Positions 2,738 through 58,325 of a stretch of 64,000 bases of DNA are shown here, piece by piece. Within the stretch, counting starts at the first letter, position 1. The number at the start of each line of letters is the position of its first letter. Source of the stretch: Rufibacter ruber (lineage in GTDB: Bacteria; Bacteroidota; Bacteroidia; Cytophagales; Hymenobacteraceae); contig NZ_LRMM01000008.1 of NCBI RefSeq assembly GCF_001647275.1, positions 1 to 64,000 on the forward strand, given 5' to 3'. The notes beneath the pieces are model-generated. The model did not search any database, was not told where the DNA came from, and saw only the letters and a list, made by a program, of their open reading frames with translations. The position numbers and the translations under genes were made by a program.

Positions 2738-3192
2738 AGGTCAATAAGTTAAGTACTGATTTAGCAGATTGGCCCGGGCACGGTGTAACCCAGCAGGGAA
2801 CCGACTTCACCTGCCACTTGCTCCCCAGGGCCCTTTTTATTGGAGGCTTGAGAGAGAAAACCCACAACGCCCGGCGTATCCCTGAAACAGAAAGTAAAAG
2901 CTCCCAGGACTGTTCCTTCACTCCGGTTCCTTTACAAGATCACCCTTCGCTGGCCCGCGTGCAATGGGTTGAACCAGAATGAGACGTTTTGGCCCTATTT
3001 TGAGAAAAACAGGCCAGAAACAGGAAGGCGGTTTGGGCAGTAAAGAAAATCCCGCCCCGGAAACCAAGGCAGGATTTTAAAGTAATCTACACTCAAGTTT
3101 TATTCAGCCCGCAATCCTGGCCGCAGAACGGCCAGAGGCCAGCCTCAGCTTTTCAACTGCTACCAAACAGCCTGAAAGAGCAATGCCGGGCT
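2738..3192. other. Intergenic gap between PL8 and GH106 genes
   Basis: 455 bp without a credible gene. It holds one copy of the dispersed palindrome (2985-3023) and a small perfect inverted repeat at 3117-3135 (CTGGCCG, 5-nt loop, CGGCCAG) about 60 bp beyond the GH106 stop. The second repeat lacks a T tract, so it is not a clear intrinsic terminator. No TTTG/TAnnTTTG promoter pair was found for the PL8 gene. Confidence 0.5.
2985..3023. repeat. Dispersed palindrome, copy 1
   Basis: Intergenic member of the window-wide palindrome family, with arms cGTTTTGGCCcTaTTTT and AAAACAGGCCaGAAACaG around a short loop. It has several mismatches. It lies between the tandem PL8 and GH106 genes. Confidence 0.75.
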
Positions 3193-6100
3193 TTATACTT
3201 TATGCTGTACCGCAGACCGCAGCACCACCGGCCCAATCAGCCCTGCCTCCAGCAACGGCGAATCTTTCAGGAAATGCTTGAACGTACTGAAGGCAACCCG
3301 GCCACCGGCAGGCTTGGGCTTATCCTGCACATACCAGTCCGGGAGCTTTTGAATCACCCCGGTGCTGTTCTCCCCGCGGCCCTCATACTTATTCTCGGGG
3401 GGTAATTGCTCATCGCCAATCAACCGGTTAGGCCATTGGTTCGTCACTTGCACCTCCAGACTGTTCCGGCCTTTCTTTACGGCATTGGTTATCTCCACCA
3501 AAAAAGGCGGTTTCCAGAAAATACCCAGGTCTTTGCCGTTTACCTTGACTTCGGCAATCACTTCTACCCTGCCCAAATCCAGGAACAGACGCTTGCCGTT
3601 GTCTAAGGCATTGGCGGGCACCGTGAATTCCTTGGTGTAAGTAGCCGTGCCCGAGAAATATTTTACTCCGTCTTCCTGGTGTTTGTGCAAGGAAATCAAT
3701 TGGGGCAATACGGTTTTGGCCGGGGCGCCCAGATTGGGCGGAAAATTAACCGTCCATTCCCCTGAAAGTACAGTGGGGCGGTCAATGCCAGAAATCTTGG
3801 CTGTGAGCGCTTTGTCTTTATTGGTACGCAGAGTATAGTTCCCGTTTTCCCAGAACAGAAGACCCGGCTGGCCCGAGGCCAGCGAGACGCTGCCCGGTTG
3901 CTCGGGCCCTTTGTCGGGGATTTGGGCCAGCTGCTGGATTCGCTCGGCGGAGAGCGCTTCTTTGGTCACCTCCAGGCTGTTCAAATCGCCCTCGAACAGC
4001 CAGCCGCTGTAATCCTGCTTAAAATCGCCTACGCCGGGGTGCACTATCTTCCTGGATTTTTTCCCGGCGCTTATGAATTTACCGTTCACGTACACAGAAG
4101 GCACATTGTCTTTGTACACCAGCGCCACGTGGGTCCAACCAGAAAGCGACAGCGGCACGATGAGCGCCTTGCTCAACCCGCCTTTGGCCCGTTCAGAGAC
4201 AATGATGCCGTTGCGGGCCACCACCATCCCGCAGGCGGCATGGCCTTCGCCGTAGAGCACTTCGCCTTCCGGCGGATAAAACAGGTGGCTTGAAATCTGT
4301 TTCCCTTCAAAGCGGCCGTCCAGTTGGTCATCTACCTCGGGCTTCACCCAGGCGGTCAGCGTAAAGTTGGCGGTGACGTCTCTGTAGCGGCCAGGGGCAA
4401 TTCGCCTGAAATCTTGGGTAGACACCAACGCAGTTCCGTCTTTTTCAATGGATTTGATGCTGGTGGAGGCCACCGGTTCCCGGAACACAATGAAACAGGA
4501 GCCGCTGGGGTCAAGTTGCAGCGGAACCACCGTTCGGCCGTCTATCTGGTCAAAGACTTCTAGCTTGTTAATTTCACCGGTGGCGGCGTCCCAAAGCTCG
4601 GGCTGCTTGCCGGTCACCCTGAACGTGGCCGTGAGGTCTTCTTTTAACCGGCGCCTGCTGCCTATGAAATAGACCTCGCCGCCGGCAATGGTCCGATGGA
4701 TGAAATTCACCTCTGCGTCTCCGGATTTAGACGTAAACTCGAAGTCTGGTTTCAGGTTCAGTTGCGCCACCACCTGGTCTAACGGCTGGTAACGGAACAC
4801 CGTTCCCGCCCCTACCTTCCGCACCGCGGCCGGACTGTCTCCCCAAAGCTCACGCACTAATTGCTGGAGCGCGGCCTCATTCTTCTGGTGCCCTTGCAGG
4901 CCCGGGGTTCGCTCCGGCGGATTGCCCACCAGCACCATGCCTTGGTTGACCAGTTCACGCAGGGTTTGCAGCACCTCCAGAGACATGTCTTTCTTGGGGA
5001 TAAGCACCAGCATTTTGTAGGTGGGCCCGCCCGGCAGCGAGATGGCATTGTTTTGAATGCGAATTCTGGTCAGGACGTCTTTGTTGGCCCAGTTCCAGTC
5101 ATAGCCTTTGGGGGGTGCCGGGTTGGGCTCCACGGTGTGGGAAAGCTTGTCGCTGGGCACGGTCTCCCCGGCGTAGTACAAAATATCTGCGCAGAAAACG
5201 CCCTGCTGCAAGACGTTTTGGCAACGGTTGATATAGGTCAGCCAGCTTCTGCTCTGCTCAAACCAGGTGTTGGTGCGGTCATAATGAAACCCGAACTGCC
5301 CCATGGTCATGCCGGGCCGGGCGGTACTGTGCGGCTGGTGGGCGTACCGGTGGAAAATGTACCGGGTTACCCCGCTGGTGAACATAAAGTCGCCCTGGCT
5401 TTTCATGGTGTAGGGGTGCTCCATCCATTTAGAATGGCGGGGGTCACCGGTGAAGGCCTCGGCGCCCACAATCTGCCGGCCGTCTGTATATTTCCCGAAC
5501 ACATGCGCAATGGAAGACGCCAGCTTGTCTGTTGAGAAAAGCCGGGAGCCCCGGCCCCAGAATTCGCCCATAGTAATGTCAACTTTAGAGCCAACCTCCA
5601 TCTGGTCAAAGGGTGCCACCTCGCTGTAAGGTTCCACGTAGCTGGTCATGCCGTTCTGGCGGCAAAGCTCCGCGAAGCGGCCGTAATAGTTCTGGGCAAT
5701 GAGGTCGGCGTGGGTTCTCCGGAAATCCCATAGGAACCGCTCGGTGATGTCTAAATCCCCCACAATTCTGCCAGTCACCGCCGGGAGGTATTTCACGAAG
5801 TCATAGCCCCGGCGTTTCTCAAATTCGGCGGCCATGGCGGGCGTCCAGTTTTGCAGGCCCACCTCGTAGCTGTCAATGAGCAAGCCTACTTTGGTTTTGT
5901 TCGCCCATTGCCGCACTACCGGCATGAGTTTCTCTAACAGCTTGTTGAAATGGAAGTCCAGCGCCTGGCTGCGGTATTTATCTACTTCCAGCCCAATGCC
6001 GCTTTCTGGCGCGGCGCGGTTTTCCCGGTCTATAACGGTGTGGCCCAGGCGCAGCACCGTCCATTTGCCTTTGGGGGCTTTCCACTTCAGGGTACCGTCT

Positions 6101-6831: not shown

Positions 6832-6995
6832 ATAGAATTGAAAATAGCTTGAGAAGGTGCGCCTGGTTTAAAGGCACCTTCTTCCTTACATGTGACTCTA
6901 ACTTTCCAGGTAAAACCCTCTCTCTCTGAACCTGCAGTCTATGAATTCGCCAGACAAGAGGCCCAACCCAGGGGTTCTCCTCACGGAGGAAATTT

Positions 6996-7032
6996 GCGTT
7001 TTCGCTGTTTTGGCCAAAACAGGCCGAAAACG
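6996..7032. repeat. Dispersed palindrome, copy 2
   Basis: Arms GCGTTTTCG-CTGTTTT and AAAACAGGCCGAAAACG around the loop GGCC. One or two bases are missing from the left arm. It lies in the GH106/sulfatase gap together with copy 3. Confidence 0.8.
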
Positions 7033-7138
7033 GAAGCCGTGTTTCCCTCCCTTCTTTCGGCGTAGCCGCTACACTTTTTGGTTGGAGAAGGGATGCTCTC
7101 TGTTTACAGAAGAACCTTCCGGTTGGCGGTACTTCCGG

Positions 7139-7198
7139 CGCTGGCATTGCGTTTTGGGGCTGTTTTAGCCAAAACAGCCCCAAAACGCAATGCCAGCG
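7139..7198. repeat. Dispersed palindrome, copy 3 (perfect 28-bp arms)
   Basis: The longest perfect copy. The arms at 7139-7166 and 7171-7198 are exact reverse complements around the 4-nt loop AGCC. Outside the shared core, the outer 12 bp of each arm (CGCTGGCATTGC and its complement) is unique to this copy yet perfectly paired. Confidence 0.95.
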
Positions 7199-7289
7199 TC
7201 AGGGAAACGTCTGTGTGGCGTTCCCTCAGAAGCGGCATCGTTTTAAGTTTCCCTTTACCTCTGGGAAGACCTCGCTCCGGAGTAAAAAC

Positions 7290-9006: not shown

Positions 9007-9030
9007 GTTGTACTTAAAGGGTAAAGTTTC

Positions 9031-9068
9031 CGTTTTGGGGCTGTTTTAGCCAAAACAGCCCCAAAACG
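9031..9068. repeat. Dispersed palindrome, copy 4
   Basis: Perfect arms CGTTTTGGGGCTGTTTT and AAAACAGCCCCAAAACG around the loop AGCC, only 24 bp upstream of a sulfatase start and 42 bp from the next sulfatase's stop. It shares its core and loop with copy 3. Confidence 0.93.
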
Positions 9069-9110
9069 CGTCTATTTAAAATGGCACATCGGCCAGCGGC
9101 CGAAAGGGGC

Positions 9111-10612: not shown

Positions 10613-10735
10613 GTTGGTACGTGGGTGAAAGTGGGTGCGGCCAGCCGATGGGTCTTCTCCGGAGATTAGGTTTTAGACCCGCAACGGCAGCAGTAGTTTA
10701 ATGACTGCCCCTTCGTTTCCATTTATTATATTTTT

Positions 10736-10772
10736 GCGTTCGCCTGTTTTGGCCAAAACAGGCCGAAAACGC
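10736..10772. repeat. Dispersed palindrome, copy 5
   Basis: Arms GCGTT-CGCCTGTTTT and AAAACAGGCCGAAAACGC around the loop GGCC. It lies upstream of a sulfatase start. Confidence 0.85.
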
Positions 10773-10996
10773 AGATTGCTTATAAATCTCTGGCCAGCCG
10801 ATGAAGAAGCCGTGGTGTTCCTTTCCGGCCACGCCTTGCTCACTTCTTCTTCATGCCTGCGCTCTTCATGGCTTTTTCTGAAGTTACTCTCTATTAACTC
10901 CTCTTAGCTTTTTCTTTGCTCTTCCAGATTTACCAATCTTCGCTCTCTTTGCTCTTCCGGATTGCACCAAACTTGTTATGCTCTTCCGGATTTACC

Positions 10997-11136: not shown

Positions 11137-11220
11137 GGGCCCGAACACCGGAAACGAAGCAGAAACAGGAACCTGATACCTGAGCACAAGACTCGTACAA
11201 TTTCCATCATTACTCTCATT

Positions 11221-11258
11221 CCCTTTCGCCTGTTTTAGCCAAAACAGGCCGGAAACGG
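11221..11258. repeat. Dispersed palindrome, copy 6
   Basis: Arms CCCTTTCGCCTGTTTT and AAAACAGGCCGGAAACGG around the loop AGCC. It ends two bases before the stop codon of the sulfatase at 11260. Confidence 0.85.
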
Positions 11259-11259
11259 C

Positions 11260-12891
11260 TTACTCTTTATAAGGGTCAACCTGGTTTCCTTTGGGCAGCA
11301 CATGGTGCGAATTGGCCCACGCATACCATTGGTCGTTCAGTTTCTTCACAAGGTCTGGGTGCTGGGGGGCCAGGTTGTGGCGCTCGGTACGGTCTTTGGC
11401 CAGGTCATAGAGTTCCCACGTCTGGTCTTTCAGTTTTTTTACGGCTTTCCAGTTGCCCCAGCGTATGGCGCAGTTGTCCTGGTGTTCCCAGTACATGAAT
11501 TCATGCTTTTTCTTTTCAGGCGCGCCTTTGAACGCAGCGGCCAAACTAATGCCCTCTGCAGGAATGATTTTCTGCCCGTTGTGGAACGTGCTGGGGTATT
11601 TAGTCTGCGCCAGTTCTACCAGCGTGGGCATGATGTCCTGGATGTGGTAGGGCGTGTGGTTCCATTTGCCGGCCTGGGTTTTGATGCCCTTGGGCCAGTG
11701 CGCGATAAACGGCGTAGCGATGCCGCCTTCATAGGTTTCCACCTTAAACCGTTTGAAAGGCGTGTTGCTGGCGTTGGCCCAGCCTTGCCCGTATGAGACC
11801 GCCCAGAACTTGAGCGGGTCGTTTACTTCGGCCTGCGGTTTGCCGCCCAATTCTTTGTAGGGTTCGGCGCAGGCGCCGTTGTCACTCAGGAACAGGATGA
11901 GCGTGTTGTCCAGCTTGTCGGTTTCTTCGAGGTAGTTCACCAGTTTGCCGATGTTCTGGTCCATGTTAGACATCTGCCCCGCGTAGACAGCCATTCTGAA
12001 ATCAACGTCCTCCTTTTCTTTCTGGGTCAGCTCTTCCCAGGGGCGCATCTCGCGCTGGGCCATGCCCCAGTCGGGTTTAATGAAGCCCAGTTCCAGCTGC
12101 TTTTTGAGGCGCTCTTGCCGCACTACGTCCCAGCCTTTCAGGTACTTACCCACAAACGGCTCATAGTCTTCTTTCTTTGCCTGCAGCGGCCAGTGCGGCG
12201 CGGTGTGGGCCACGTACAGGAAGAACGGCTTGTTGTCTTTCTGTTGTTTCAGGAAGTTGATGGCGTTGTCTGTGAACGCGTCTGTGTCATAAAAATCTGG
12301 GGCGAAGTCATATTGGGTGGGCCCGTCATTCAGGGTCACGCCGCGCGGCGGAAAGGGTTGCAAGTGGCTGGCCCCACCCGATAAAATACCGTAGAACTGC
12401 TCAAACCCTCGGCCCACAGGCCATTTTTCCTTGCCATGCATGCCCACGTGCCATTTGCCCACCATGTAGGTGTGGTAGCCGGCGGCCTTCAGGACTTCGG
12501 CCAGCGTGACGCTGTTGCGGTTGAGATAACCCCGGTAGCCGTGCACGCCCCAGTCGTTCACTTTCGGTTTTTCAGGGTCTTCGGCCATGTGGCCGATGCC
12601 CGCCTGGTGCGGCGCCACCCCGGTGAGCAGCGCCGCCCGTGACGGACAGCAGCGGCCCACGTTGTAAAACTGCGAGAACCGTAGCCCTTTCTGCGCCAAT
12701 TGATCAAGGTTGGGCGTGGGAATTTCGCCGCCGTAACTGCCAATATCTGAGAAGCCCATGTCATCTGCCATGATAAGCACAATGTTGGGCCGTTCCTGGG
12801 CATGGCTTCCCTTAGGAAAAACCAGTAGACAAGCCACTAACCAGAGAAAAAGCGGAAAACGGGGCGAGGGAAACCGAGCAGAAAACACCAT
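11260..12891 (-). CDS. S1 family sulfatase, intact
   Basis: 543 residues from the ATG at 12891. A longer frame reaches 13014 but would translate through palindrome copy 7 and would bury the signal peptide, so the downstream start was chosen. The signal peptide ends GSHAQ. It is followed by PNIVLIMADDMGFSDIGSYGG (metal-binding Asp at 43-44) and the formylglycine motif CCPSR with Cys81. HWPLQ, LFLSDNGAC and WKAVKK are further S1 sulfatase landmarks. It closely resembles the frameshifted sulfatase at 7290-9006, so the two may be paralogues acting on different sulfate positions of one glycan. It is the only one of the three sulfatases here with an unbroken frame. A formylglycine-generating or anaerobic maturase must be encoded elsewhere. 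Confidence 0.92.
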   Translation of the reverse strand: MVFSARFPSPRFPLFLWLVACLLVFPKGSHAQERPNIVLIMADDMGFSDIGSYGGEIPTPNLDQLAQKGLRFSQFYNVGRCCPSRAALLTGVAPHQAGIGHMAEDPEKPKVNDWGVHGYRGYLNRNSVTLAEVLKAAGYHTYMVGKWHVGMHGKEKWPVGRGFEQFYGILSGGASHLQPFPPRGVTLNDGPTQYDFAPDFYDTDAFTDNAINFLKQQKDNKPFFLYVAHTAPHWPLQAKKEDYEPFVGKYLKGWDVVRQERLKKQLELGFIKPDWGMAQREMRPWEELTQKEKEDVDFRMAVYAGQMSNMDQNIGKLVNYLEETDKLDNTLILFLSDNGACAEPYKELGGKPQAEVNDPLKFWAVSYGQGWANASNTPFKRFKVETYEGGIATPFIAHWPKGIKTQAGKWNHTPYHIQDIMPTLVELAQTKYPSTFHNGQKIIPAEGISLAAAFKGAPEKKKHEFMYWEHQDNCAIRWGNWKAVKKLKDQTWELYDLAKDRTERHNLAPQHPDLVKKLNDQWYAWANSHHVLPKGNQVDPYKE

Positions 12892-12925
12892 ATGCGTACT
12901 TGGTTCAGTGAGGGAGAATAACTTT

Positions 12926-12965
12926 GCGTTTTTGGGCTGTTTTCCAGAAAACAGCCCGAAAACAG
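12926..12965. repeat. Dispersed palindrome, copy 7
   Basis: Arms GCGTTTTTGGGCTGTTTT and AAAACAGCCCGAAAACag around the loop CCAG, lying between the sulfatase start (12891) and the PorP/SprF stop (13045). Confidence 0.87.
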
Positions 12966-13044
12966 GGGTAAAAAACCGGCCCCACCCAAAGAAATAGATG
13001 AGGCCGGCACACACACTACAAACAATCTACACTACTCTCTTTGC

Positions 13045-16759: not shown

Positions 16760-16865
16760 AATAACATGTTTTGTATTTTATAAAGCAGGCAACGTTTAGA
16801 TGCATTGACAGATACTTCTGTTGCACCTCTATGCGTCTCAAGTGTTTTAGAGCCACAGGCTGTAC

Positions 16866-16905
16866 CTGTTTCTGGCCTGTTTTTCAGAAAGCAGGTCAGA
16901 AACAG
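16866..16905. repeat. Dispersed palindrome, copy 8
   Basis: Arms CTGTTTCTGGCCTGTTTT and AAAgCAGGtCAGAAACAG around TCAG, with two mismatches. It lies between the SusD stop (16928) and the CHU_C protein start (16759). Confidence 0.82.
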
Positions 16906-16927
16906 AAAATACAGTTAGTTGTGCAGC

Positions 16928-22913: not shown

Positions 22914-23683
22914 TGAGCCTGTTCCTGTTGTTCCTGTATATGTGTTTCGGCACCTTGCCTTTGCAACGCCAAGATATAACAAGTTTCATATATTCTGAAT
23001 CTCTATAGAAATAATAGACTTTAATTCTTAGCGTCACTACATTGTAGATAACCAGCCAGGTATTCTCCAGCCCCACCTTGCCTCCAAGTATCTAGCCCCG
23101 GTAAAACCCCGGAGTCAACAGCCAGCGTATTCAGTGCAAAAGAAGCTGGTTGCACTTACCCTAACTTGTAGTGACCCTTTAGAGTGCCCTTTCCACACTT
23201 GTTGTACCTGTTCTGCTAACCTGAGTGAGGTATTAGAAATAGTAAAATGGTTCATTCTAGCCTTTCCCTACTTCTCCTGGTTAAAAAGCAGAGGCTATCT
23301 TCTGATGGGTTGGGGTAGGTTTACATCTCACTTTCGGGACCCAAAAAGGTATTAATAGAACCTGTGGTTGCCGGTTTCTCTCCCTGTAGCGGTGGTTAGC
23401 CTCTTACTAAATGGCGTTGCCCGCACCTCATGCTCCAATTTTTTCACGTCCAAACCCAATTTCAAACCAGCTCAGAGAGGCAACAGGGAGGTAGTGTGCC
23501 AGCTGTTTTAAGCCTGTTTTTCCAAAAACAAGCCGAAAACAGCAACTCAACTGGCCCTGGTAAACCACGTATATAGCTGAACAAGTGATTTTAGGCCAAT
23601 CTGGCAGATAGAGAAATAAAGCTTTGGACCACCTGCTGTCGCTAAAATACCTGGTTAAACATAATGTTTCCCTGGCAAGCCCC
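22914..23683. other. Gene-poor gap
   Basis: About 770 bp. It holds palindrome copy 9 at 23502-23543 close to the next gene. Short open frames here (for example plus strand 23134-23355) have no recognisable composition or neighbours and are not called. Nothing else was recognised. Confidence 0.4.
23502..23543. repeat. Dispersed palindrome, copy 9
   Basis: Arms GCTGTTTTaaGCCTGTTTTT and AAAAACAaGCCGAAAACAGC around CC, with a few mismatches. The outer GCT/AGC pairs differ from other copies but match each other. Confidence 0.82.
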
Positions 23684-25065: not shown

Positions 25066-25113
25066 CTTTCTGTTTTGGGCCTGTTTTGGCGAAAACAGCC
25101 CCAAAACAGAAAG
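25066..25113. repeat. Dispersed palindrome, copy 10
   Basis: Arms CTTTCTGTTTTGGGcCTGTTTT and AAAACAGCCCCAAAACAGAAAG around GGCG, nearly perfect over about 22 bp. The outer CTTTCT/AGAAAG pairs are shared only in part with other copies. Confidence 0.9.
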
Positions 25114-25241: not shown

Positions 25242-25314
25242 TGATCCCGCTGGGATTCGAACCCAGGACCCATACATTAAAAGTGTATTGCTCTACCAGC
25301 TGAGCTACAGAATC
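25242..25314 (-). tRNA. tRNA-Lys (anticodon TTT)
   Basis: A 73-nt cloverleaf on the minus strand, beginning GATTCTGTAGCTCAGC. The acceptor stem GATTCTG pairs with CGGGATC (three G-T pairs), followed by discriminator A. The D-loop has the usual AGCTCAGCTGGTAGAGC core. The anticodon loop is CTTTTAA, giving anticodon TTT (lysine). The T-arm is CTGGG-TTCGAAT-CCCAG. CCA is not encoded. It has its own consensus promoter upstream and a strong terminator downstream, so it is a single-gene transcription unit. Confidence 0.96.
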
Positions 25315-26171: not shown

Positions 26172-26219
26172 ATTTCTGTTTTGGGGCTGTTTTTACAAAA
26201 ACAGCCCCAAAACAGAAAT
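26172..26219. repeat. Dispersed palindrome, copy 11 (perfect)
   Basis: Perfect arms ATTTCTGTTTTGGGGCTG-TTTTT and complement around AC, about 23 bp each. It fills the gap between two convergent genes and ends directly at the SDR stop codon (26220). Confidence 0.94.
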
Positions 26220-27373: not shown

Positions 27374-27421
27374 ATTTCCGTTTTCGGGCTGATTTCTGGA
27401 AAACAGGCCGAAAACGCAAAT
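27374..27421. repeat. Dispersed palindrome, copy 13
   Basis: Arms ATTTcCGTTTTCGGGCTG-aTTT and AAAACAGgCCGAAAACG-CAAAT around CTGG, imperfect in the centre. It lies upstream of rlmD. Confidence 0.8.
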
Positions 27422-28886: not shown

Positions 28887-28935
28887 AATGACTGTTTTCG
28901 CCTGTTTTCTGGAAATCAGGCCGAAAACAGTCATT
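28887..28935. repeat. Dispersed palindrome, copy 14
   Basis: Arms AATGACTGTTTTCGcCTGtTTT and complement around CTGG, almost perfect. It begins two bases after the stop codon of rlmD. The outer AATGACT/AGTCATT pairs are unique to this copy. Confidence 0.9.
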
Positions 28936-29201
28936 TGCAGTTTGGGAGTTCTACTTCCGAACTCATCTAGGGGGGAGTTCTATTCCCCGCGGGACTACGG
29001 GCAAATGATGGGGAGTGGAACTGCCCGGCCGGGTGCTTTCGGAGTAGAACTCCGTAAGAGCGACGAGAATTCAGAAATAGGAACGAGCGGCTAGCACCCT
29101 AATGGAGCGATTAGGAGCAGTTAGCTGCTTTGCCGTGCGGCAGAAAAAACTGCTGCTTATTTTTACTTAGTAAGCTTAGCGCGATAGGCGGAAGGAGTGC
29201 T

Positions 29202-29243
29202 TCTGTTTTTAGCCTGTTTTCAGAAAAACAGCCCCAAAACGCA
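29202..29243. repeat. Dispersed palindrome, copy 15
   Basis: Arms CTGTTTTTaGCCTGTTTT and AAAAACAGCCCCAAAACGC around CAG, imperfect at the outer end. Confidence 0.8.
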
Positions 29244-29294
29244 TCTGATTTTAAATTTGTACGTGCTACTTGATACGCAATACGTGATACTACC

Positions 29295-29684: not shown

Positions 29685-29721
29685 GAAGCCCTCACCGGTT
29701 TTGAAAACCGCTGAGGGCTTT
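29685..29721 (+). terminator. Intrinsic terminator after the 29295-29663 gene
   Basis: AAGCCCTCA pairs with TGAGGGCTT. A second small stem (CGGTTTT/AAAACCG) lies inside the loop, and the T run CTTTT follows. It stands 22 bp after the stop codon. Confidence 0.8.
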
Positions 29722-29722
29722 T

Positions 29723-29761
29723 GCGTTTCCGGCTTATTTTCTGGATTTTAGACCGAAAACG
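29723..29761. repeat. Dispersed palindrome, copy 16
   Basis: Arms GCGTTTcCGGcttaTTTT and atTTTAGaCCGAAAAC-G around CTGG, clearly degenerate. It follows directly after an intrinsic terminator. Confidence 0.65.
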
Positions 29762-29834
29762 AAGAATAATCTTGAATTCCCTGCCGCCTCCTCCCCTCAC
29801 GGGTCACTTTCTCTTGCGTCTCATCAAAAAGTTA

Positions 29835-31237: not shown

Positions 31238-31338
31238 ACAAAGGATAGCACACAGGACAAGCTGATAAATGCAGGAGAAAGGAGTTAAGACTTTTATAGC
31301 CTGCTTACTCTATGCGTTTGCCTCCAATAAGGCATCTT

Positions 31339-31376
31339 CTGTTTTGGGCCTGTTTTTCAGAAAACAGCTCAAAACC
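31339..31376. repeat. Dispersed palindrome, copy 17
   Basis: Arms CTGTTTTGGGCCTGTTTT and AAAACAGctCaAAAC-cG around TCAG, with a few mismatches. It lies in the gap between convergent genes. Confidence 0.83.
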
Positions 31377-31459
31377 GTGGCCACAAGCGAACGCTTGCGC
31401 CAGAAGTTTAACAGGTGAGAAAGACGTTACTTAAAAATTTGCCCTCAAAACCCAAATCC

Positions 31460-32816: not shown

Positions 32817-32864
32817 ACTATTTCTACTTTACAATATATTTTTGCCCTGAAATGCACGAGCTAT

Positions 32865-32901
32865 GCGTTTTCGGCTTATTTTTAGAAAAACATCTTTAAA
32901 C
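32865..32901. repeat. Dispersed palindrome, copy 18 (strongly degenerate)
   Basis: GCGTTTTCGGCttaTTTTT followed by AGAAAAAca and TTTAAAC. The left arm fits the family, while the right arm is largely eroded. It lies in the thiL/TetR divergent gap. Confidence 0.4.
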
Positions 32902-32969
32902 TGCAAAGATAGCGTTTTCTCCGGCGCTCTCTATGGCAGGTGTAAAGTAGCTTCAAGAATAAACTTTTA

Positions 32970-33612: not shown

Positions 33613-33701
33613 AGGCGGCGAATAAAATCTGCTCTGGAAAGGTACGCTTCTTTTGCGCCATAGTTGAACAATCTTCCGGTTAAGGGCTTAGGTTGAGGGA
33701 T

Positions 33702-33741
33702 TCTGTTTTTGAGCTGTTTTTCAGAAAAGAGGCCAAAAACG
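33702..33741. repeat. Dispersed palindrome, copy 19
   Basis: Arms CTGTTTTTGaGCTGTTTT and AAAAgAGGCCAAAAACG around TCAG, imperfect. It lies upstream of rarA. Confidence 0.78.
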
Positions 33742-33814
33742 AAAAGGAAAGGAAGTATCTTAGCCTTTGGTTTCGCGGCCCCGCCGAAGACGTTGTACTT
33801 ATTGACTTTCGCCC

Positions 33815-35092: not shown

Positions 35093-35127
35093 TGCGTGAA
35101 GGAGTGAGTTTTATTTGGAGAGAGAAA

Positions 35128-35167
35128 CGCGTTTTGGGCCTGTTTTTCTGAAAACAGGCTCAAAACA
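35128..35167. repeat. Dispersed palindrome, copy 20
   Basis: Arms CGCGTTTTGGGCCTGTTTT and AAAACAGGcTCAAAACag around TCTG, lying 36 bp after the rarA stop. Confidence 0.87.
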
Positions 35168-35309
35168 GGAAACCGGCGGCACTGAGCACATCTTGGGCTT
35201 CGCCCGAAGGGATATTCTGAAAAGTCTTTTGGCCAGCGCGCAACGGGGTCTATCCTTACTGAAACAGCTGGGGTATTTAAAAAATGAAGCGTCTCCTAAT
35301 GAATTGCCA

Positions 35310-35717: not shown

Positions 35718-35881
35718 GAGCGTGTTTAAAATTTGGCTTTCATGCTGCAAAAGGCCACAGCATGAACCGGCCAGCTCCATTTTCTAGCACCGTAGCTCTG
35801 CTTAGACCCTCATCAATCGCTTCGTCAGAATCTTTCGTTCCCACTTTTAGCGGCTAAAACCAAAGATAAACAAGCTGTAAG
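35715..35881. mobile_element. MITE-like non-autonomous element, copy B
   Basis: About 167 bp starting TTAAGAGCGTGTTTAAAA, aligned with copy A (31071-31237) in the same order and at nearly the same spacing. The far end TAAACAAGCTGTAAGG is an imperfect inverted version of the start. Its first bases form the TAA stop of the lipoprotein gene, and its last base touches palindrome copy 21. Confidence 0.75.
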
Positions 35882-35922
35882 GTGTTTCCGGGCTGTTTTC
35901 AGAAAAACAGCCCGGAAACGCA
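35882..35922. repeat. Dispersed palindrome, copy 21
   Basis: Arms GTGTTTCCGGGCTGTTTT and AAAACAGCCCGGAAACGC around CAGA, nearly perfect. It abuts MITE-like element B. Confidence 0.9.
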
Positions 35923-35939
35923 ATTTGGGTCAGCGAGGC

Positions 35940-36251: not shown

Positions 36252-36335
36252 GGTTTAATTAAGTGAAGGGGTGAATGAGTGATTATCTCTTGGGACTATA
36301 ACAAAACTCCTTTACGCAAAACGCCTCTACGGTGT

Positions 36336-36375
36336 CTGTTTTTGGCCTCTTTTTCTGAAAACAGCCTGAAAACAG
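36336..36375. repeat. Dispersed palindrome, copy 22
   Basis: Arms CTGTTTTTGGCCTcTTTT and AAAACAGcCTGAAAACAG around TCTG, imperfect. It lies between two minus-strand genes. Confidence 0.8.
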
Positions 36376-36409
36376 CATGTTCCATTTCCTGATTTAAGCA
36401 TTGCTTTCT

Positions 36410-39036: not shown

Positions 39037-39105
39037 GTTTTACAGGCACCCAGCCCCCCATGCCAGCTTGCAAATTTTTTACGACCTTGCAGGCCACAAC
39101 CAAAT

Positions 39106-39146
39106 CTGTTTTGGAGCTGTTTTAGAAAAAGTAGCCCATAAACAGA
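39106..39146. repeat. Dispersed palindrome, copy 23
   Basis: Arms TCTGTTTTGGaGCTGTTTT and AAAgtAGCCCAtAAACAGA around AGA. The right arm has two substitutions. It lies between sppA and the phosphorylase. Confidence 0.75.
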
Positions 39147-39165
39147 AACACAGCACGTAAACCAC

Positions 39166-40012: not shown

Positions 40013-40060
40013 CAAAAGTAAAGGCCGAAGGAATGTGAATTTCTTCGGCCTTTACTTTTG
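40013..40060 (+). terminator. Intrinsic terminator of the phosphorylase gene
   Basis: CAAAAGTAAAGGCCGAAG and CTTCGGCCTTTACTTTTG are perfect 18-bp complements around a 12-nt loop, 28 bp after the stop codon. It serves the plus-strand gene, and by symmetry possibly the convergent DUF4249 gene as well. Confidence 0.85.
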
Positions 40061-40090
40061 GGTTGTTTTAAGAAAAACAGCCAATAAACG
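40053..40090. repeat. Dispersed palindrome, copy 24 (degenerate)
   Basis: Arms TaCTTTTGGGtTGTTTT and AAAACAGCCaAtAAACG around AAGA. The left arm is shared with the end of the neighbouring terminator. Confidence 0.55.
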
Positions 40091-40100
40091 CACAGATGTG

Positions 40101-44295: not shown

Positions 44296-44339
44296 TTCTG
44301 TTTTTGGTCTGTTTTCTGAAAAACAGGCCGAAAACAGAA
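44296..44339. repeat. Dispersed palindrome, copy 25
   Basis: Arms TTCTGTTTTTGGtCTGTTTT and AAAACAGGCCGAAAACAGAA around CTGA, nearly perfect. It lies between the chimera start and the GHL10 stop. Confidence 0.9.
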
Positions 44340-49266: not shown

Positions 49267-49296
49267 AATTGGTTTTGATTAGGATAAAGGGAAGGC

Positions 49297-49333
49297 TGTT
49301 TCTGGCCTGTTTTCTAAAAAACAGGCCAGAAAC
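49297..49333. repeat. Dispersed palindrome, copy 26
   Basis: Arms CTGTTTCTGGCCTGTTTT and AAAACAGGCCAGAAACA around CTAA, nearly perfect. It interrupts the otherwise tight minus-strand gene cluster. Confidence 0.9.
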
Positions 49334-49368
49334 AACTTTCCCATGATGGTGCTACCTGAGGACAGAGC

Positions 49369-50528: not shown

Positions 50529-50537
50529 AGTTCAGGG

Positions 50538-53523: not shown

Positions 53524-53700
53524 GAGCCTGTCTTCATTTTGATTCTGCAGGTGAATACCATGAGCGTGAGGCCTACTATACCTTTTTAGAATAGGGTAAG
53601 AGCAACGCCGCGATGACCATAAAAACTGAGGCAGTTGTCGGCTTTGGGACCGTTCTGGCAGCACCCAAAAGAAAAGCCTGAACTTGTCCTGAAATTCCCA

Positions 53701-53800
53701 CCTGTTTCTGACCTGTTTTCCTGAAAACAGCCCCAAAACAAAACAGCCCTAAAACGGTCTCTCGTTTTAGGGCTGTTTTCTGAAAAGTAAGCCAGAAATA
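53701..53800. repeat. Dispersed palindrome, copy 27 (compound, overlapping copies)
   Basis: One copy (CTGTTTCTGacCTGTTTT with AAAACAGcCCcAAAAC) abuts a second truncated copy (CGTTTTAGGGCTGTTTT followed by a degraded arm). The right arm of the first and the left arm of the second pair with each other to make the terminator hairpin listed at 53740-53779. Confidence 0.8.
53740..53779. terminator. Bidirectional terminator-like hairpin between convergent genes
   Basis: AAAACAGCCCTAAAACG and CGTTTTAGGGCTGTTTT form a 17-bp perfect stem around GTCTCT, followed by TTTTGTTTT on the minus strand. It lies between the amidase stop and the P5C dehydrogenase stop and is built from two joined palindrome arms. 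Confidence 0.8.
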
Positions 53801-53802
53801 GG

Positions 53803-55434
53803 TTAGTCCTGCTGCAGGAACGGGTAGCGGTAGTCAACCGGGGGCACAAACGTCTCCTTGATGGTACGGGCGGTGGTCCAGCGCAACAGGTTCAGCATAG
53901 AACCGGCTTTGTCGTTGGTCCCGGAGGCGCGGCTTCCGCCGAAAGGCTGCTGCCCAACCACGGCACCCGTGGGCTTGTCATTGATGTAGAAGTTCCCCGC
54001 CGAGTGACTCAGCCTCTTGGTAGCCAACTCAATAGCGTAACGGTCATTGGCGAAGATAGCCCCCGTTAAACCGTACGGCGACGTCTCATCTACAATTTTC
54101 AGCGTCTCCTCAAACTGGTCTGCCTCATAGACGTGCAGCGTGAGCACCGGCCCGAACAGCTCGTCGCACATGGTCACGTAGTTAGGATCCTGCGCCACAA
54201 TAATGGTAGGCTCAATGAAATAGCCTTTGCTCTTGTCATATCCGCCGCCGGCAATGATCTCTACCGTGTCATCTTTCTTGGCGGCGTCAATGTAGCGGGC
54301 CAGCTTGTCAAAGCTCTTCTCGTCAATCACGGCGTTAATGAAGTTGCTGAAGTCTTCGGGGTCACCCATCTTGAAGGATTTCAGGTCTTCCACCACGTAG
54401 CGTTTCACGTCTTCCCAGAGGTTGCTGGGGATGTACGCACGCGAGGCCGCCGAGCATTTCTGCCCCTGAAACTCAAACGCGCCCCGGCTAATGGCCACGG
54501 CCACTTCTTTGGCGTTGGCAGATTTATGCGCTACAATAAAGTCTTTCCCGCCGGTTTCGCCCACAATGCGCGGGTAGTTGCGGTAGGTGTTGATGTGCTC
54601 GCCAATGGTTTTCCAGATCTGGTTGAAAACGCCCGTGCTGCCCGTGAAATGGATTCCCGCAAAATGGCGGTTCTTGAAGATCACGTCTCCGGCCACCGGA
54701 CCGTCTACGTACACCAGGTTGATCACACCGTCTGGCAAGCCCGCGGCTTTGAACAGATCCATGATCACCTTAGCGCTGTAAATCTGGGTGTTAGCGGGCT
54801 TCCAAACCACCACGTTGCCCATCATGGCCGGTGCGGCAGGCAGGTTGGCGGCAATAGAGGTAAAGTTGAACGGCGTGAGGGCGAAGATGAAGCCTTCCAG
54901 CCCGCGGTGCTCCAGGCGGTTCCACATGCCGGGCAGAGACTCAGGCTGCAGCTTGTAGATCTCAGTCATGTACTTCACGTTGAACCTAAAGAAGTCAATC
55001 AGCTCACAGGCGGCGTCAATCTCGGCCTGAAACGCGTTTTTTGACTGACCCAGCATGGTAGCGGCGTTCATCCTGGCCCTGAACGGACCGGCCAACAGGT
55101 CAGCGGCTTTCAGGAAGATGGCGGCGCGGCTTTCCCACGGCATGTTCGCCCACTGCTCACGCGCGGCCAACGCGGCATCAATGGCCTGCTGCACGTGGCT
55201 GGCATCACCGTAATGGTAATGGGCTATCACGCGCTGGTGGTCATGCGGGGGGGTGAAGGGCTGCTTGTTCTCAGTGCGAACCTCCTGGCCGCCAATGTAC
55301 ATGGGAATATCCAGCTGCTGCTCCCGCAGCTCATTATATGCTTGCTGCAGTTCTGCTCTTTCTTTGCTGCCCGGGGCATAGCCCTTCACCGGCTCGTTCA
55401 CCGGAATAGGAACATTAAAAAATGCGTTGGCCAT
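53803..55434 (-). CDS. pruA: 1-pyrroline-5-carboxylate (L-glutamate gamma-semialdehyde) dehydrogenase
   Basis: 543 residues. It oxidises L-glutamate gamma-semialdehyde (from proline) to glutamate with NAD in the cytoplasm. The sequence has the aldehyde dehydrogenase fold with the pyrroline-carboxylate signature: the N-terminus MANAFFNVPIPVNEPVKGYAPGS is typical of the standalone PruA enzyme of Bacteroidota, then FALTPFNFTSIAANLPAAPAMMGN, HFTGSTGVF, VGETGGKDF (general-base Glu) and GAFEFQGQKCSAASRAY (catalytic Cys). Length is normal. No proline dehydrogenase gene is in the window. A CAAAGGTA on the plus strand at 55472-55479 is a -7-like element for this gene, without a clear -33. Confidence 0.95.
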   Translation of the reverse strand: MANAFFNVPIPVNEPVKGYAPGSKERAELQQAYNELREQQLDIPMYIGGQEVRTENKQPFTPPHDHQRVIAHYHYGDASHVQQAIDAALAAREQWANMPWESRAAIFLKAADLLAGPFRARMNAATMLGQSKNAFQAEIDAACELIDFFRFNVKYMTEIYKLQPESLPGMWNRLEHRGLEGFIFALTPFNFTSIAANLPAAPAMMGNVVVWKPANTQIYSAKVIMDLFKAAGLPDGVINLVYVDGPVAGDVIFKNRHFAGIHFTGSTGVFNQIWKTIGEHINTYRNYPRIVGETGGKDFIVAHKSANAKEVAVAISRGAFEFQGQKCSAASRAYIPSNLWEDVKRYVVEDLKSFKMGDPEDFSNFINAVIDEKSFDKLARYIDAAKKDDTVEIIAGGGYDKSKGYFIEPTIIVAQDPNYVTMCDELFGPVLTLHVYEADQFEETLKIVDETSPYGLTGAIFANDRYAIELATKRLSHSAGNFYINDKPTGAVVGQQPFGGSRASGTNDKAGSMLNLLRWTTARTIKETFVPPVDYRYPFLQQD

Positions 55435-55532
55435 ATGAATGTAGGTTAGATGTCAAAATAAATCAGGTGAGCAAAGGTAAGGCTTTCATGGGGAAAAGGC
55501 TAACAGGCGCTAGGCTCCGTTTCTATAACGCC

Positions 55533-55579
55533 GACGTGCGTTTTTGGCCTGTTTTCCGGAAAACAGCAAAACGCACGTC
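55533..55579. repeat. Dispersed palindrome, copy 28
   Basis: Arms GACGTGCGTTTTTGGCCTGTTTT and AAAACAGc--AAAACGCACGTC around CCGG. The inner right arm lost about three bases, yet the outer 8 bp (GACGTGCG/CGCACGTC) is perfect and unique to this copy. Confidence 0.88.
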
Positions 55580-55597
55580 AAGATTCTTATGCAAAAG

Positions 55598-56455
55598 CTA
55601 CACTTCGAACAAAAAGAAAGGCAAGGCCAACCCCGCCTTCTGCAGAATGGGTTTGGCCACATTGAAAACTTTAACGCCCTTTGAGGTCTGGCCCTCTAAC
55701 GTGCCCACGTGGGCATGGCCATGAAAGCAGGCCACCACATTCTGCCGGTTCAAAGGCTCTGCCAGGCGGGAGCAGCCCAGAAACGGGTGAATGGCATCAG
55801 GCTCGCCTACCACGGTGGCTTTGATGGGCGCGTAATGCATGATCGCTATTTTTTTCACATCTGGGTGCTCAGAGTCCAGGCGCGAAAGGGCGCTTTCCAG
55901 TTTCAGGGCTTCGTCTACGGCGGTCTGCACAAAGGCTTTGTTTTCGGCCTCGCCGAACATGGAGAGCATGTACTGGTCAAACCCGCCGCCGTAGCCTTTC
56001 ACCCCGGCAAACCCCACGTTGCCAATCACAATAGAATCTCCGTCTAAGAAATGCACGGTATCTTTCACCAGGGCTTTCCTGATGGCCTGGTGCTCATTCT
56101 TGTCATGGTCATGGTTGCCCAGCACGCAGATCACCGGAATGGTGCAGGCCTTCATCTCCTCGCAGAGCACCTCTGCCTCTACCGCATAGCCATGGTCCGT
56201 GAGGTCGCCGCACAGCAGCAGCACGTCTGCCTGCTGCGAAGCTGACCTGAAGAAGTCCACCCACTTGCCCTTGTCGGTTTCGCGCACGTGAATATCGCCC
56301 ACGGCGGCAATCCTGAACGGCCTTGCCGGCTCTTGCGGCACGCCGGGCTGCTCAGAAACCATTTGCTGCGGATGCTGCTGCGGCTGCGCCGATGCTGGGG
56401 GGACCGGCTGCAGGGTGTTCACGGGTTGCGGGTTGGTGAGGGGCTGTTGTTCCAT
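55598..56455 (-). CDS. Metallophosphoesterase
   Basis: 285 residues with a low-complexity, proline/glutamine-rich N-terminus (about 1-45, QPVNTLQPVPPASAQPQQHPQQ) and no signal peptide, so it is cytoplasmic. The calcineurin-like phosphoesterase motifs follow: DIHVRE (the D-x-H), LLCGDLTDHG, VLGNHDHDKNE, IAIMHYAPIK and FHGHAHVG, together giving the metal-binding His/Asp set. Such enzymes cleave phosphoesters ranging from nucleotides to proteins, and the substrate is unknown. The next gene upstream on the same strand is a nucleotidyltransferase, separated by a terminator-like hairpin, so the two may be related in function but are not a simple operon. Confidence 0.88.
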   Translation of the reverse strand: MEQQPLTNPQPVNTLQPVPPASAQPQQHPQQMVSEQPGVPQEPARPFRIAAVGDIHVRETDKGKWVDFFRSASQQADVLLLCGDLTDHGYAVEAEVLCEEMKACTIPVICVLGNHDHDKNEHQAIRKALVKDTVHFLDGDSIVIGNVGFAGVKGYGGGFDQYMLSMFGEAENKAFVQTAVDEALKLESALSRLDSEHPDVKKIAIMHYAPIKATVVGEPDAIHPFLGCSRLAEPLNRQNVVACFHGHAHVGTLEGQTSKGVKVFNVAKPILQKAGLALPFFLFEV

Positions 56456-56577
56456 TCTAGTTTAGATTTTAGACGCTAGACTGCAGATGTTACACATCTT
56501 TGACAGACATAGAATACGTTCTATGGATAGGTGTTGGTTTAAAAAAGTCTTTCCTCCCTTTCTGGGAGGCGTATTGA

Positions 56578-56620
56578 AAAAATCCCCCTTGCCCGCAAAA
56601 GGCGAGCGAGGGGGATTTTT
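56578..56620 (-). terminator. Intrinsic terminator downstream of the nucleotidyltransferase gene
   Basis: AAAAATCCCCCT pairs with AGGGGGATTTTT (12 bp) and ends in T runs on the minus strand. It lies about 90 bp after the stop of the gene at 56709. Confidence 0.88.
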
Positions 56621-56708
56621 CATATAGCATCACTCAAAGCAAAGCACCAGTTATTTCCTTACAGCATAACCAACCTCTACAACCTGGCTTCTACCTTCTT
56701 GCGTCTCT

Positions 56709-57449
56709 TTAAATAGTTACACTGGTGATGGCTTTGAAGCCCCACTCAGTCACCGCCGGCGCGTACTGGGTCTGGTCAAAGAGCAGGCCACGGCACACTT
56801 TCTCCGTAGGGGGGGGCATGTCAAACTGTTCTTTGGCACGCAGCAGCAACTCGTCAAAAATGTCTCTGGGAATAATGTCGCGCTCAGACGGGTACACAAA
56901 CTGAAACGACATGAACTGGGCCAGCAGCAGGTGCCAGTGGTGCTCCAGGGTTTCAAAAATACGGCGCCAGTTCATCTTGTCACCGTAGCGCAGAATGAGG
57001 TGGTTCAGGTCTGAGCCGTCATAGCGTTCCCGGTTCTGCACGTAGATTTTGCACTTGAACAGGTCCTCGGCCGAAATATATTTCACGGGTACCCCGAACT
57101 CTGTGCCCTCTGTTGTGTGACGGTACCAGTTGTCATTCACGGGGGTAAAGCTGCCAGGGTTGTTGAAGATAAAGTCAACGTATTTGCCGTCTTTGAACGC
57201 CTTGGCCAGCCAGCGGGCATCTACCAGCTCGGTCTCAAAGCCTTCATCTGCAAACAGCTTGAGCAGGCGCGGGCAGTCGCCGGCGGTGCAGAACACATCC
57301 ATGTCTTTCATGGCCCGCTGCATGCCGGTGTATTGGCGCAACGCGAAGCCGCCGCCCATCATAAACGGCAAACCGCTCTCGTGCAGCATTTTCAATGCCT
57401 GCGGATAAAACTCCAAGGCCACCTCTGGGGCCATATCATCCAGTTCCAT
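56709..57449 (-). CDS. Nucleotidyltransferase-fold protein
   Basis: 246 residues from the ATG at 57449 (MELDDMAPEVALEFYPQALKMLHESGLPF). A longer frame to 57524 starts in low-quality sequence. The N-terminal region has the pol-beta-type nucleotidyltransferase fold: MGGGFALRQYTGMQRAMKDMDVFC (the GG and D-x-D metal site), followed by KYVDFIFNN with a third carboxylate and VPVKYISAEDLFKCKIYVQNRERYDGSDLNHLI, and a helical C-terminus with LEHHWHLLLAQFMSFQFVYPSERD. It resembles the unclassified NTase proteins of the MNT/AbiEii type. Activity and partner are unknown. The metallophosphoesterase gene follows on the same strand. Confidence 0.8.
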   Translation of the reverse strand: MELDDMAPEVALEFYPQALKMLHESGLPFMMGGGFALRQYTGMQRAMKDMDVFCTAGDCPRLLKLFADEGFETELVDARWLAKAFKDGKYVDFIFNNPGSFTPVNDNWYRHTTEGTEFGVPVKYISAEDLFKCKIYVQNRERYDGSDLNHLILRYGDKMNWRRIFETLEHHWHLLLAQFMSFQFVYPSERDIIPRDIFDELLLRAKEQFDMPPPTEKVCRGLLFDQTQYAPAVTEWGFKAITSVTI

Positions 57450-58325
57450 ATGTATATCTTGTTTTGAAAAGTAGAAGAAAACGCCGCCGTTCTGGCCGCG
57501 CCGCCACCCGCTTTTCTTTGGCATACGCCGCAGGGCCGCAGCCGGTTAGAGCAAGTGGTATAGCATTTACTGAATCCTTGGAAAAATGTTATCCCAGAAA
57601 GGCGCGGCAGCGGCAGAAAACTGTGAGATTCCTGTTTTCGGGCTGTTTTTCTGAAAAAAGGTCAAAAACAGGAATCTGGCTTACAGACTCTAGTTGCGCT
57701 GGGATCTATGTGTTTAAAACGAACTTATTTTCTGACAATTGTTTTTCTCAATTGCAATTTCTGTGTGTTTGTCAGGGGCAAGCGTGCTCTGGCACAACTT
57801 TCTTTTTTCCTGCATCTGCCTAATCTTCTGTTCACCAGTTGGCAAACAGACTTACTATACAGCTAAGAAATATCCTTTTCTATATAATTCTCAATTAGTT
57901 GGGCAGTAAATTTTATTTATAGAAACATGTCAAAAACTCCCTTAATCGCTTTCAGCGGAAGGATATTTTCTTTTTATTTGCTGTAATTATACGTATAAAT
58001 ACGGTTTAACTTACTGCACTACCACTATCATAAGTTATTGATTATAAAATTATTAAGCCTTCTCTTATTCAGAAATAAGCAACTTTAACTTTCTTTCGCC
58101 GTCACTCCCCCACCTCGGCAGATTACCCTTGGCGCACAGAACTGTGTACTGTCTGCGCGCCCTAAAACTTTACCATCTGGACCGGTAACTCCGCGAGGAA
58201 CTACCTTTTCAGTTTTCTAATATACATCTATTACCGTTGGCCCAACCTCGTGGTTTTGACTTTCGAGTGTTGGCCGGCATTGCATGACCACCCTTATTCT
58301 TCAACACCACCAACCCCTACCCTTT
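57450..58325. other. Long leader region of the giant protein
   Basis: About 875 bp with no gene of its own. It contains palindrome copy 29 (57626-57677) and an A/T-rich stretch at 57830-58070, where a promoter is likely. The last 235 bp are richer in G/C with short inverted matches (for example GGCGC-ACAGA near TCTG-CGCGCC), but I recognise no riboswitch or known RNA. Confidence 0.4.
57626..57677. repeat. Dispersed palindrome, copy 29
   Basis: Arms AGATTCCTGTTTT-CGGGCTG and their complement around TTTCTG. The inner right arm has changes, but the outer AGATTCCTG/CAGGAATCT is perfect and unique to this copy. Confidence 0.88.

Follow-up and report, generated by a model that had tools for sequence, protein, structure and literature searches.

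A hyper-abundant intergenic palindrome of Rufibacter, held gap by gap across the genus and possibly read by a DNA-binding protein at transcription-unit borders

What is a palindrome that recurs in most of the longer gaps between the genes of a bacterium, and what keeps it there? The question is raised by a 64-kb stretch of Rufibacter ruber DNA (assembly GCF_001647275.1, contig NZ_LRMM01000008.1, positions 1-64,000; hereafter the window), in which a sequence-only reading had noticed about 29 copies of such a repeat and had expected thousands in a 5-Mb genome if that density held. It had likened them to REP/BIME-type elements moved by RAYT transposases, and had named a structured RNA, a nucleoid-binding DNA site and a transcription-boundary element as other options. 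No paper describing the palindrome was found in the open-access literature that we searched.

The copies were modelled with a 44-column weight matrix (PWM) trained on 153 of them, and every match of at least 12 bits was taken as an element. A scan of 807,763 bases from this genome gave 395 elements, and 403 with a re-trained matrix, whereas the same DNA reversed gave 0 in both scans, which speaks against a chance origin. The exact core, CTGTTTTNNNNAAAACAG, occurred at 1063 sites in the whole genome, and the reversed pattern at 0. Scaling gives about 2,500-2,750 elements per genome (2535-2745 in 5.50 Mb), in line with the thousands that had been expected. The hyper-abundant intergenic family is confirmed as real.

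In the window the matrix finds 29 copies, the same number as before, of which 19 lie in tandem, 6 in convergent and 4 in divergent gaps and 0 were assigned to a called gene. They are given here without strand, with PWM scores. The tandem copies begin with 2982..3025 (45.8 bits), 6992..7035 (36.5 bits) and 7147..7190 (52.6 bits), the arms of the last continuing for 8 perfect pairs beyond the unit. Alignment with G005 showed a counterpart in the same gap for 9028..9071 (51.4 bits), and counterparts also for 11217..11260, which adjoins a stop codon (24.0 bits), 12924..12967 (59.7 bits) and 16864..16907 (53.4 bits), but no clear counterpart for 10731..10774 (28.5 bits). The copy at 25068..25111 (60.9 bits) shares its gap with a tRNA at 25242-25314. 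Further tandem copies are 28889..28932 (38.1 bits), 29201..29244 (58.6 bits), the weak 29721..29764 (26.0 bits), 32863..32906 (31.6 bits), 35127..35170 (55.2 bits), 36334..36377 (55.1 bits), 39104..39147 (45.5 bits), 44296..44339 (62.0 bits), 49294..49337 (51.1 bits) and 55536..55579 (24.3 bits). Convergent gaps hold 26174..26217 (63.7 bits), 31337..31380 (51.1 bits), 35880..35923 (53.7 bits) and 40050..40093 (29.7 bits), which overlaps another inverted repeat at 40013-40060; a single convergent gap contains both 53700..53743 (55.0 bits) and 53760..53803 (39.7 bits). The divergent copies are 23501..23544 (52.3 bits), 27376..27419 (58.3 bits), 33701..33744 (56.6 bits) and 57630..57673 (56.1 bits).

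Placement was examined over the whole sample. With genes called by our own simple gene finder (78% of bases coding, with start-codon uncertainty in the counts), the element midpoint was intergenic in 382 of 395 copies and inside a called gene in 13; the copies are intergenic as claimed, and the statement that coding regions hold none is nearly true. Tight tandem gaps were nearly free of the element, as had been noticed in the window (1 of 97 gaps below 30 bp and 4 of 51 between 30 and 80 bp). Most gaps of at least 80 bp carried one, also as described (283 of 415, namely 183 of 272 tandem, 62 of 68 convergent and 38 of 75 divergent), and the larger occupied regions usually held one or two. The element started 0-40 nt past the stop codon in 83 of 247 tandem copies, and in convergent gaps its median distance to the nearest gene end was 29 nt. 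Since 38 of the 75 divergent gaps are occupied, the element is not tied to gene ends alone.

The element is a 44-base palindrome of two inverted half-sites, GTTTTnGGsCTGTTTT, with about 4 bp between them, and each half-site consists of two TGTTTT-like blocks spaced by about one helical turn (11 bp). The loop is 4 nt long in 377 of 389 copies of at least 16 bits (other lengths were scored with a 3-bit penalty), and the 4-6 nt given before was therefore slightly wide. The dyad arrangement of the half-sites is nearly obligatory: only 17 orphan half-sites of at least 17 bits were found in 808 kb, against 403 complete elements, and among these 17, three were cut by a contig start and several came from shortened palindromes. 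The two ends of the element are nearly symmetric in the oriented profile, and loops of the CAG and CTG type were about equally frequent (52 and 46, p 0.61 in the strand-symmetry test).

We then asked how the two arms are related. Counts of up to 18 of 20 paired positions roughly match the expectation for independent arms, and for about 90% of copies the pairing between arms is what independent draws from the consensus would give. Copies with 19-20 of 20 pairs numbered 47, against 7.1 expected; about 10% of copies are thus near-perfectly symmetrised, some of them past the edges of the unit. Arm covariation was seen at element positions 10, 13 and 21 (z 4.2, 8.1 and 5.5), and the covariation score of a sample made up largely of strong copies exceeded all 500 shuffles. 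Selection for a cruciform or hairpin in general receives no support from the bulk of copies, whose arms are independent.

These data bear on one alternative, an RNA hairpin transcribed at gene ends, where it would stop transcription or protect the 3' ends of mRNAs. REP hairpins can do either, and the placement of the Rufibacter element downstream of stop codons, together with its presence in 62 of 68 convergent gaps of at least 80 bp, would suit such a role, as would the covariation score of the mostly strong copies and the compensatory changes seen between orthologous sites in, for example, gaps 2, 11 and 22. The wobble test was mixed. In tandem gaps G-U mispairs did not exceed A-C mispairs, either in the genome itself (293 vs 319) or in 15 other species (366 vs 371), whereas among the well-paired tandem-gap copies of those species G-U was above A-C (54 vs 30). 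At the S position of the sense strand C-C exceeded G-G (54 vs 26), and because of these two excesses the strand symmetry is imperfect. On balance the wobble and arm-independence tests disfavour the structured RNA of the sequence-only reading, and the occupied divergent gaps also count against a hairpin at gene ends.

Terminators were considered separately. Like intrinsic terminators, the elements are inverted repeats at gene ends and symmetric in convergent gaps. A crude finder recognised intrinsic terminators in few of the tandem gaps with an element (25 of 183), and the element itself could therefore be the terminator there. Unlike terminators, it gives no overall sign of selection for RNA pairing and has no U-tract: the oriented flank profile of tandem gaps contained no T-run past the element, the top downstream T share being 0.37. 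It also adjoins an ordinary terminator-like hairpin at several loci; of the 62 convergent gaps with an element, 34 also contain such a hairpin, and element and terminator do not overlap in 24 of 37 pairs from tandem gaps. With no U-tract and independent arms, intrinsic terminator was rejected as the general identity, although the copies in single gaps may still be terminators. In an Rfam search of the window only the tRNA at 25242-25314 reached its gathering score; Rfam matches of low E-value were mostly to models of microRNAs, which fit perfect hairpins and stayed under their gathering scores, and a known RNA family was rejected. Overall, we consider it unlikely that the element acts as an RNA hairpin.

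The sequence-only reading had proposed a profile scan of related genomes. When this was carried out, the element was present in all 16 Rufibacter genomes examined, at 0.39-0.72 copies per kb with species-trained matrices, and is thus not confined to the window. Outside Rufibacter only stray copies were found, and perfect inverted repeats in other genera were mostly terminator-like hairpins, with no rival family seen. Exact-core counts differ widely (1063 here and 3-316 in congeners), but the species-trained matrices gave similar densities in the 16 species; the differences in count are largely dialect and degeneracy and are therefore no evidence of a lineage-specific expansion, which we rejected.

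Presence was then compared gap by gap. Among 22 orthologous gaps, each seen in at least 5 of the 16 species, 10 carried an element in 87-100% of species, 10 carried it in none (three of these with a median length of at most 22 bp), and 2 were mixed. The position inside the gap often, but not always, agreed between species (exceptions are, for example, gaps 11, 17 and 18). For nine species pairs, the mean of the best matrix scores in the orthologous gap of the second species lay at 24.6-52.7 bits; a neutral simulation of substitutions only, with divergences set by hand, gave 10.6 to -22.9. Within the same species pair, orthologous copies were more alike than non-orthologous ones over the 44 positions (identity 0.631 vs 0.544) and over the variable positions only (0.462 vs 0.329; 511 orthologous and 5384 other comparisons, both orientations counted). 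Raw nucleotide conservation is weak proof of constraint in the closest pair, G003-G014 (element 0.755, rest of the same gap 0.742); in G006-G013 the difference was clearer (0.703 and 0.576). Three rows with G000, computed with element coordinates from a different contig, were left out of this comparison.

The consensus itself differs between species. Examples of such dialects are CTCATTTCyrGAAATGAG in G012, CGTTTAGGGG in G004 and CGTTTTTGGCC in G006 and G013, and species that lie further apart in protein distance tend to lie further apart in dialect as well (rs 0.67, 120 non-independent pairs).

Could the copies instead be mobile in origin, REP- or REPIN-like palindromes that a RAYT or some other single-strand transposase dispersed before they were domesticated? 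REP elements are frequent at gene 3' ends, and REP/BIME repeats can be bound by gyrase, IHF or polymerase I. The Rufibacter element resembles REP, BIME and REPIN repeats in being short, palindromic, extragenic and present in thousands of copies. The genome contains nine RAYT matches, three of them above the NCBIfam cut-off, and two of these three genes are flanked on either side by an element no more than 165 nt away, as many genes here are. Near-identical copies (at most 3 differences) are also in excess within the genome, with 103 pairs against 0-2 in a column-shuffle null, which could reflect recent copying or the heterogeneity of strong and weak copies. PMC8266576 describes REP elements as short extragenic palindromes, present in hundreds to thousands per genome, with a conserved tetranucleotide tag, mostly GTAG, that sets strand polarity. 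Neither GTAG nor any other one-sided strand-specific tag was present in the oriented element profile, and neither a GTAG/CGTC tag nor polarity was found.

The linked-RAYT check proposed earlier also gave no association. Elements lay on both sides within 200 bp at 5 of 30 RAYT loci of the genus, compared with 40 of 172 non-RAYT genes of comparable size, and RAYT as the direct mover was rejected. At one RAYT gene the flanking palindrome is a different one, 26 nt long and with 4-5 copies in 808 kb. Of 59 genomes from across the order, 50 have RAYT matches, yet the element is restricted to a single genus; in G006, 47 elements were counted in 120 kb and the RAYT matches are just two weak ones. No parent transposon with element arms as its ends was recognised among the 17 orphan half-sites in 808 kb. 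Positional variation of the mobile kind was not seen either, 20 of 22 orthologous gaps carrying the element in all or nearly all species or in none; conservation gap by gap in 16 species, the dialects and the mostly independent arms all differ from REP, BIME and REPIN repeats. According to PMC3733652, there are REP families that have no transposase of their own, and RAYT genes can be flanked by repeats unrelated to them, so the missing cognate RAYT is not decisive. With no RAYT association, no tag and the gap-by-gap pattern against it, we regard the mobile origin, which the sequence-only reading had named first, as very unlikely.

Another explanation is molecular drive, in which biased recombination or uptake, and not a function at each locus, would maintain the motif, as with the DUS of Neisseria, which serve transformation through a receptor such as ComP. 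According to PMC3630211, DUS occur in thousands of copies with dialects that follow phylogeny, and their inverted pairs are linked to terminators. The Rufibacter element is alike in its thousands of sites and in species dialects whose distance follows phylogeny. It is unlike DUS in being a nearly obligatory 44-bp dyad and not a 10-12-mer, and in being almost absent from coding DNA; an oriented single unit that also occurs in genes, as in DUS, was not what we found. Copies nearly all intergenic and rare single half-sites (17 vs 403 dyads) argue against drive, and the all-or-none pattern from gap to gap fits locus-specific selection better. Molecular drive therefore seems quite improbable to us.

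The pattern looks more like a site read by a putative DNA-binding protein than like a jumping repeat, and the DNA-site and transcription-boundary options named at the outset survive, as putative but favoured ones. The reading that we prefer, and to which we give close to an even chance, is a vertically inherited double-stranded DNA dyad that would be bound by a putative co-evolving protein and would mark transcription-unit borders. An ancestral, genus-specific dyad would have been inherited in place, preferably between convergent genes and in the DNA directly downstream of stop codons. A putative sequence-specific protein, probably a dimer or tetramer, would bind it and might mark the ends or borders of transcription units as a roadblock, insulator or supercoil barrier. 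The dialects may have arisen as protein and sites drifted together, and the near-perfect palindromy of about one copy in ten may be a side effect of template switching between the arms during replication.

Carried to the whole genus, this would amount to a chromosome punctuation of about 2,500 conserved dyads at transcription-unit borders, drifting in dialect with the putative co-evolving protein and re-symmetrised by template switching, a picture that we put forward only tentatively. Palindromes of such abundance in bacteria are mostly regarded as mobile or decaying repeats. In Rufibacter, thousands of copies seem to keep their gaps genus-wide while the flanking DNA diverges and the consensus is rewritten in each species. 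If this is true, Rufibacter would offer a natural system for one protein co-evolving with thousands of sites, a model for the marking of gene borders in Bacteroidota, and a natural case in which palindromes are repaired by template switching.

The palindrome repeat is genuine, and its abundance lies far beyond chance. Using a weight matrix trained on 153 copies, 807,763 bases of the Rufibacter ruber genome (5.50 Mb in 166 contigs) were scanned region by region; 395 elements were called, whereas the reversed sequence gave 0. The window contains 29 of these, which matches the approximate count of the sequence-only reading, and the whole genome is estimated to carry 2,535–2,745. The unit is about 44 bp long (TTCyGTTTTnGGsCTGTTTT-nnnn-AAAACAGsCCnAAAACrGAA), and each arm, as read from the sequence, repeats TGTTTT-like blocks at 11 bp. 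CAG or CTG was present inside the 4-nt centre in 41% of the copies, compared with 13% in column shuffles. Contigs C112, C35 and C100 start within an element, which suggests that some of the palindromes interrupt the assembly.

Placement was determined using gene coordinates from our own gene finder. The element had been described as intergenic, and this was borne out by the midpoints of 382 of the 395 copies. Convergent gaps of at least 80 bp carried an element in 62 of 68 cases; the figure for tandem gaps of that size was 183 of 272, and for divergent gaps 38 of 75. Elements in tandem gaps were displaced toward the stop codon (median distance, 60 nt); 83 of 247 started 0–40 nt past it, and in 12 further copies the element start preceded its end.

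The exact core was found at 3 to 1063 sites across Rufibacter genomes. This spread is largely dialect, because species-retrained matrices gave densities of 0.39–0.72 per kb for every one of the 16 genomes (40–808 kb each), and the controls yielded 0 to 3 matches per genome. No elements were found by matrix scan in six genomes of five other genera (40 kb each). The covariance-model scan of relatives that had been proposed was performed with 57 of 79 reference elements, thinned by hand. All 16 Rufibacter genomes were rich in matches (48–52 of 52 scored candidates per genome), and the element is thus not confined to the window. Outside the genus, 10 of 104 other family members were matched, 1–6 times each; in an order-wide set of 194 genomes, the best 32 candidates of each gave matches in three, R. 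ruber included. Nine loci with stray copies in other genera were checked. Four of them, in genomes of genus g3 (L275, L276, L277 and L282), sit 40–50 nt past TTGTTRGG/TTGTTGKG motifs, which we take to be integron attC-like; they may be cassettes acquired from elsewhere, in which the element is carried but not amplified. The L275 copy also adjoins a transposase-like gene. For L274, the strongest of the strays, neither such a motif nor such a gene was seen nearby.

We also compared the element gap by gap between species. Between R. ruber and the comparison genome G005 it was common to four aligned gaps (window copies at 9028, 11217, 12924 and 16864), a fifth was empty in both, and the copy at 10731 had no clear counterpart in the aligned G005 sequence. 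In a collinear block of about 45 kb shared by contig C112 and G012, whose core is spelled CTCATTTC, ten gaps contained the element in both species and two only in R. ruber. A 40-kb region around a gene that we read as lon-like was surveyed in 16 species. Of 22 gaps seen in at least five species, 10 had the element in 87–100% of species, 10 had it in none (three of these being too short), and two were mixed (3 of 8 and 6 of 15 species). The offset inside orthologous gaps frequently agreed between species, with exceptions, and orthologous copies were more similar than non-orthologous ones.

Some single gaps of this kind had features of their own. In gap 13, after the lon-like gene, an ATG lies within the right arm in 16 of 16 species, and in 13 of these the next gene was called as starting at that ATG. 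The gap 7 copy lies 13–14 nt upstream of the next gene, and most species, regardless of dialect, retain a centre like CCTAATTTYG, resembling the Bacteroidota -7 promoter motif. In Hymenobacter and Pontibacter, unrelated palindromes were seen by eye in the gap after the lon-like gene (L194, L195, L197, L203, L205, L206), as though the family in general permitted or favoured a palindrome at this place.

In a substitution-only neutral simulation the motif was expected to be lost. In the real genomes, by contrast, with the comparison restricted to gaps of limited length that scored at least 25 bits in the first species, at least 20 bits were kept in the orthologous gap in 35 of 36 cases across four sister pairs; the corresponding values were 5/8 for R. 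ruber–G005, 6/7 for R. ruber–G012, 5/7 for G012–G005, 6/8 for R. ruber–G009 and 5/5 for G004–G006. In a separate count over the four sister pairs, both species had the element in 43 gaps and a single species had it in 3. Raw identity is a weaker signal of conservation than motif presence: in the closest pair (G003–G014) element identity was not clearly above that of the remainder of the same gap, and the most conserved gaps were element-free (0.92 vs 0.74; 6 and 12 gaps). Therefore, the motif is retained while its letters shift, within fast-evolving intergenic DNA.

The sequence-only reading had likened the repeat to REP/BIME elements moved by RAYT transposases and suggested looking for a linked RAYT gene. 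Nine RAYT matches were indeed found in the R. ruber genome, three above the NCBIfam cut-off, and two of these three have an element on each side within 165 nt. However, elements on both sides within 200 bp were not enriched at RAYT loci of the genus (5 of 30, vs 40 of 172 other genes), nor was an element on at least one side commoner (15 of 30 vs 119 of 172). Across the order-wide set, 50 of 59 genomes had RAYT matches. L004, one of the three genes above the cut-off, has on both sides a palindrome of another kind, 26 nt long and with 4–5 copies in 808 kb; the RAYT genes L104 (C112), L101 (G015, contig C10) and L112 (G026, contig C7) are bracketed by or lie near short palindromes of their own, and the RAYT-adjoining types GAGACTnnAGTCTC, CTTCCGGA or GAGTCTCCAGACTC are distinct from the abundant element. 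REPs, as PMC8266576 describes them, are read strand-specifically, mostly via a GTAG tag, whereas the Rufibacter element lacks GTAG. Persistence or a missing RAYT alone would be compatible with kinship, because REPIN populations are described as lasting for millions of years while transposing slowly (PMC8049555), and REP families are described that have no transposase dedicated to them (PMC3733652). The conserved gaps and the missing tag argue against REP membership, and RAYT-driven mobility is disfavoured.

A structured RNA, another option raised earlier, would require the element to act as a hairpin. Arm covariation at three positions, compensatory changes at some orthologous sites, a strand asymmetry of C-C over G-G (54 vs 26) and, in well-paired copies of other species, an excess of G-U over A-C (54 vs 30) point that way. 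Read along the sense strand in tandem gaps, however, G-U mispairs did not exceed A-C (252 vs 280; second count, 293 vs 319 in R. ruber and 366 vs 371 in the 15 other species), pairing up to 18 of 20 positions was roughly as expected for independent arms, and loop orientation showed no strand bias. These wobble, arm-independence and strand tests speak for a duplex, and the hairpin is disfavoured. Arms pairing at 19–20 of 20 positions were in excess (47 copies vs 7.1 expected). Furthermore, in 18 of 403 copies the contiguous pairing ran on past the unit by at least four positions (expected, 1.6), and in two copies by 12. Of these 18, 11 belonged to the 47 near-perfect copies, and the 110 copies that paired at fewer than 13 positions contributed none. 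The extra arm sequences differ from copy to copy and were therefore not brought by a common mobile unit. Template switching between quasi-palindrome arms, described for E. coli and yeast (PMC8604942), would explain the extended and near-perfect copies and the covariation.

A search of one open-access library found no account of the Rufibacter palindrome. The reading we favour, at slightly under even confidence, is a duplex DNA site bound by a protein; the binding protein, its co-evolution with the sites and a border function are inferred. By description the element is a repetitive extragenic palindrome, but its behaviour is that of a conserved regulatory site that comes in dialects.
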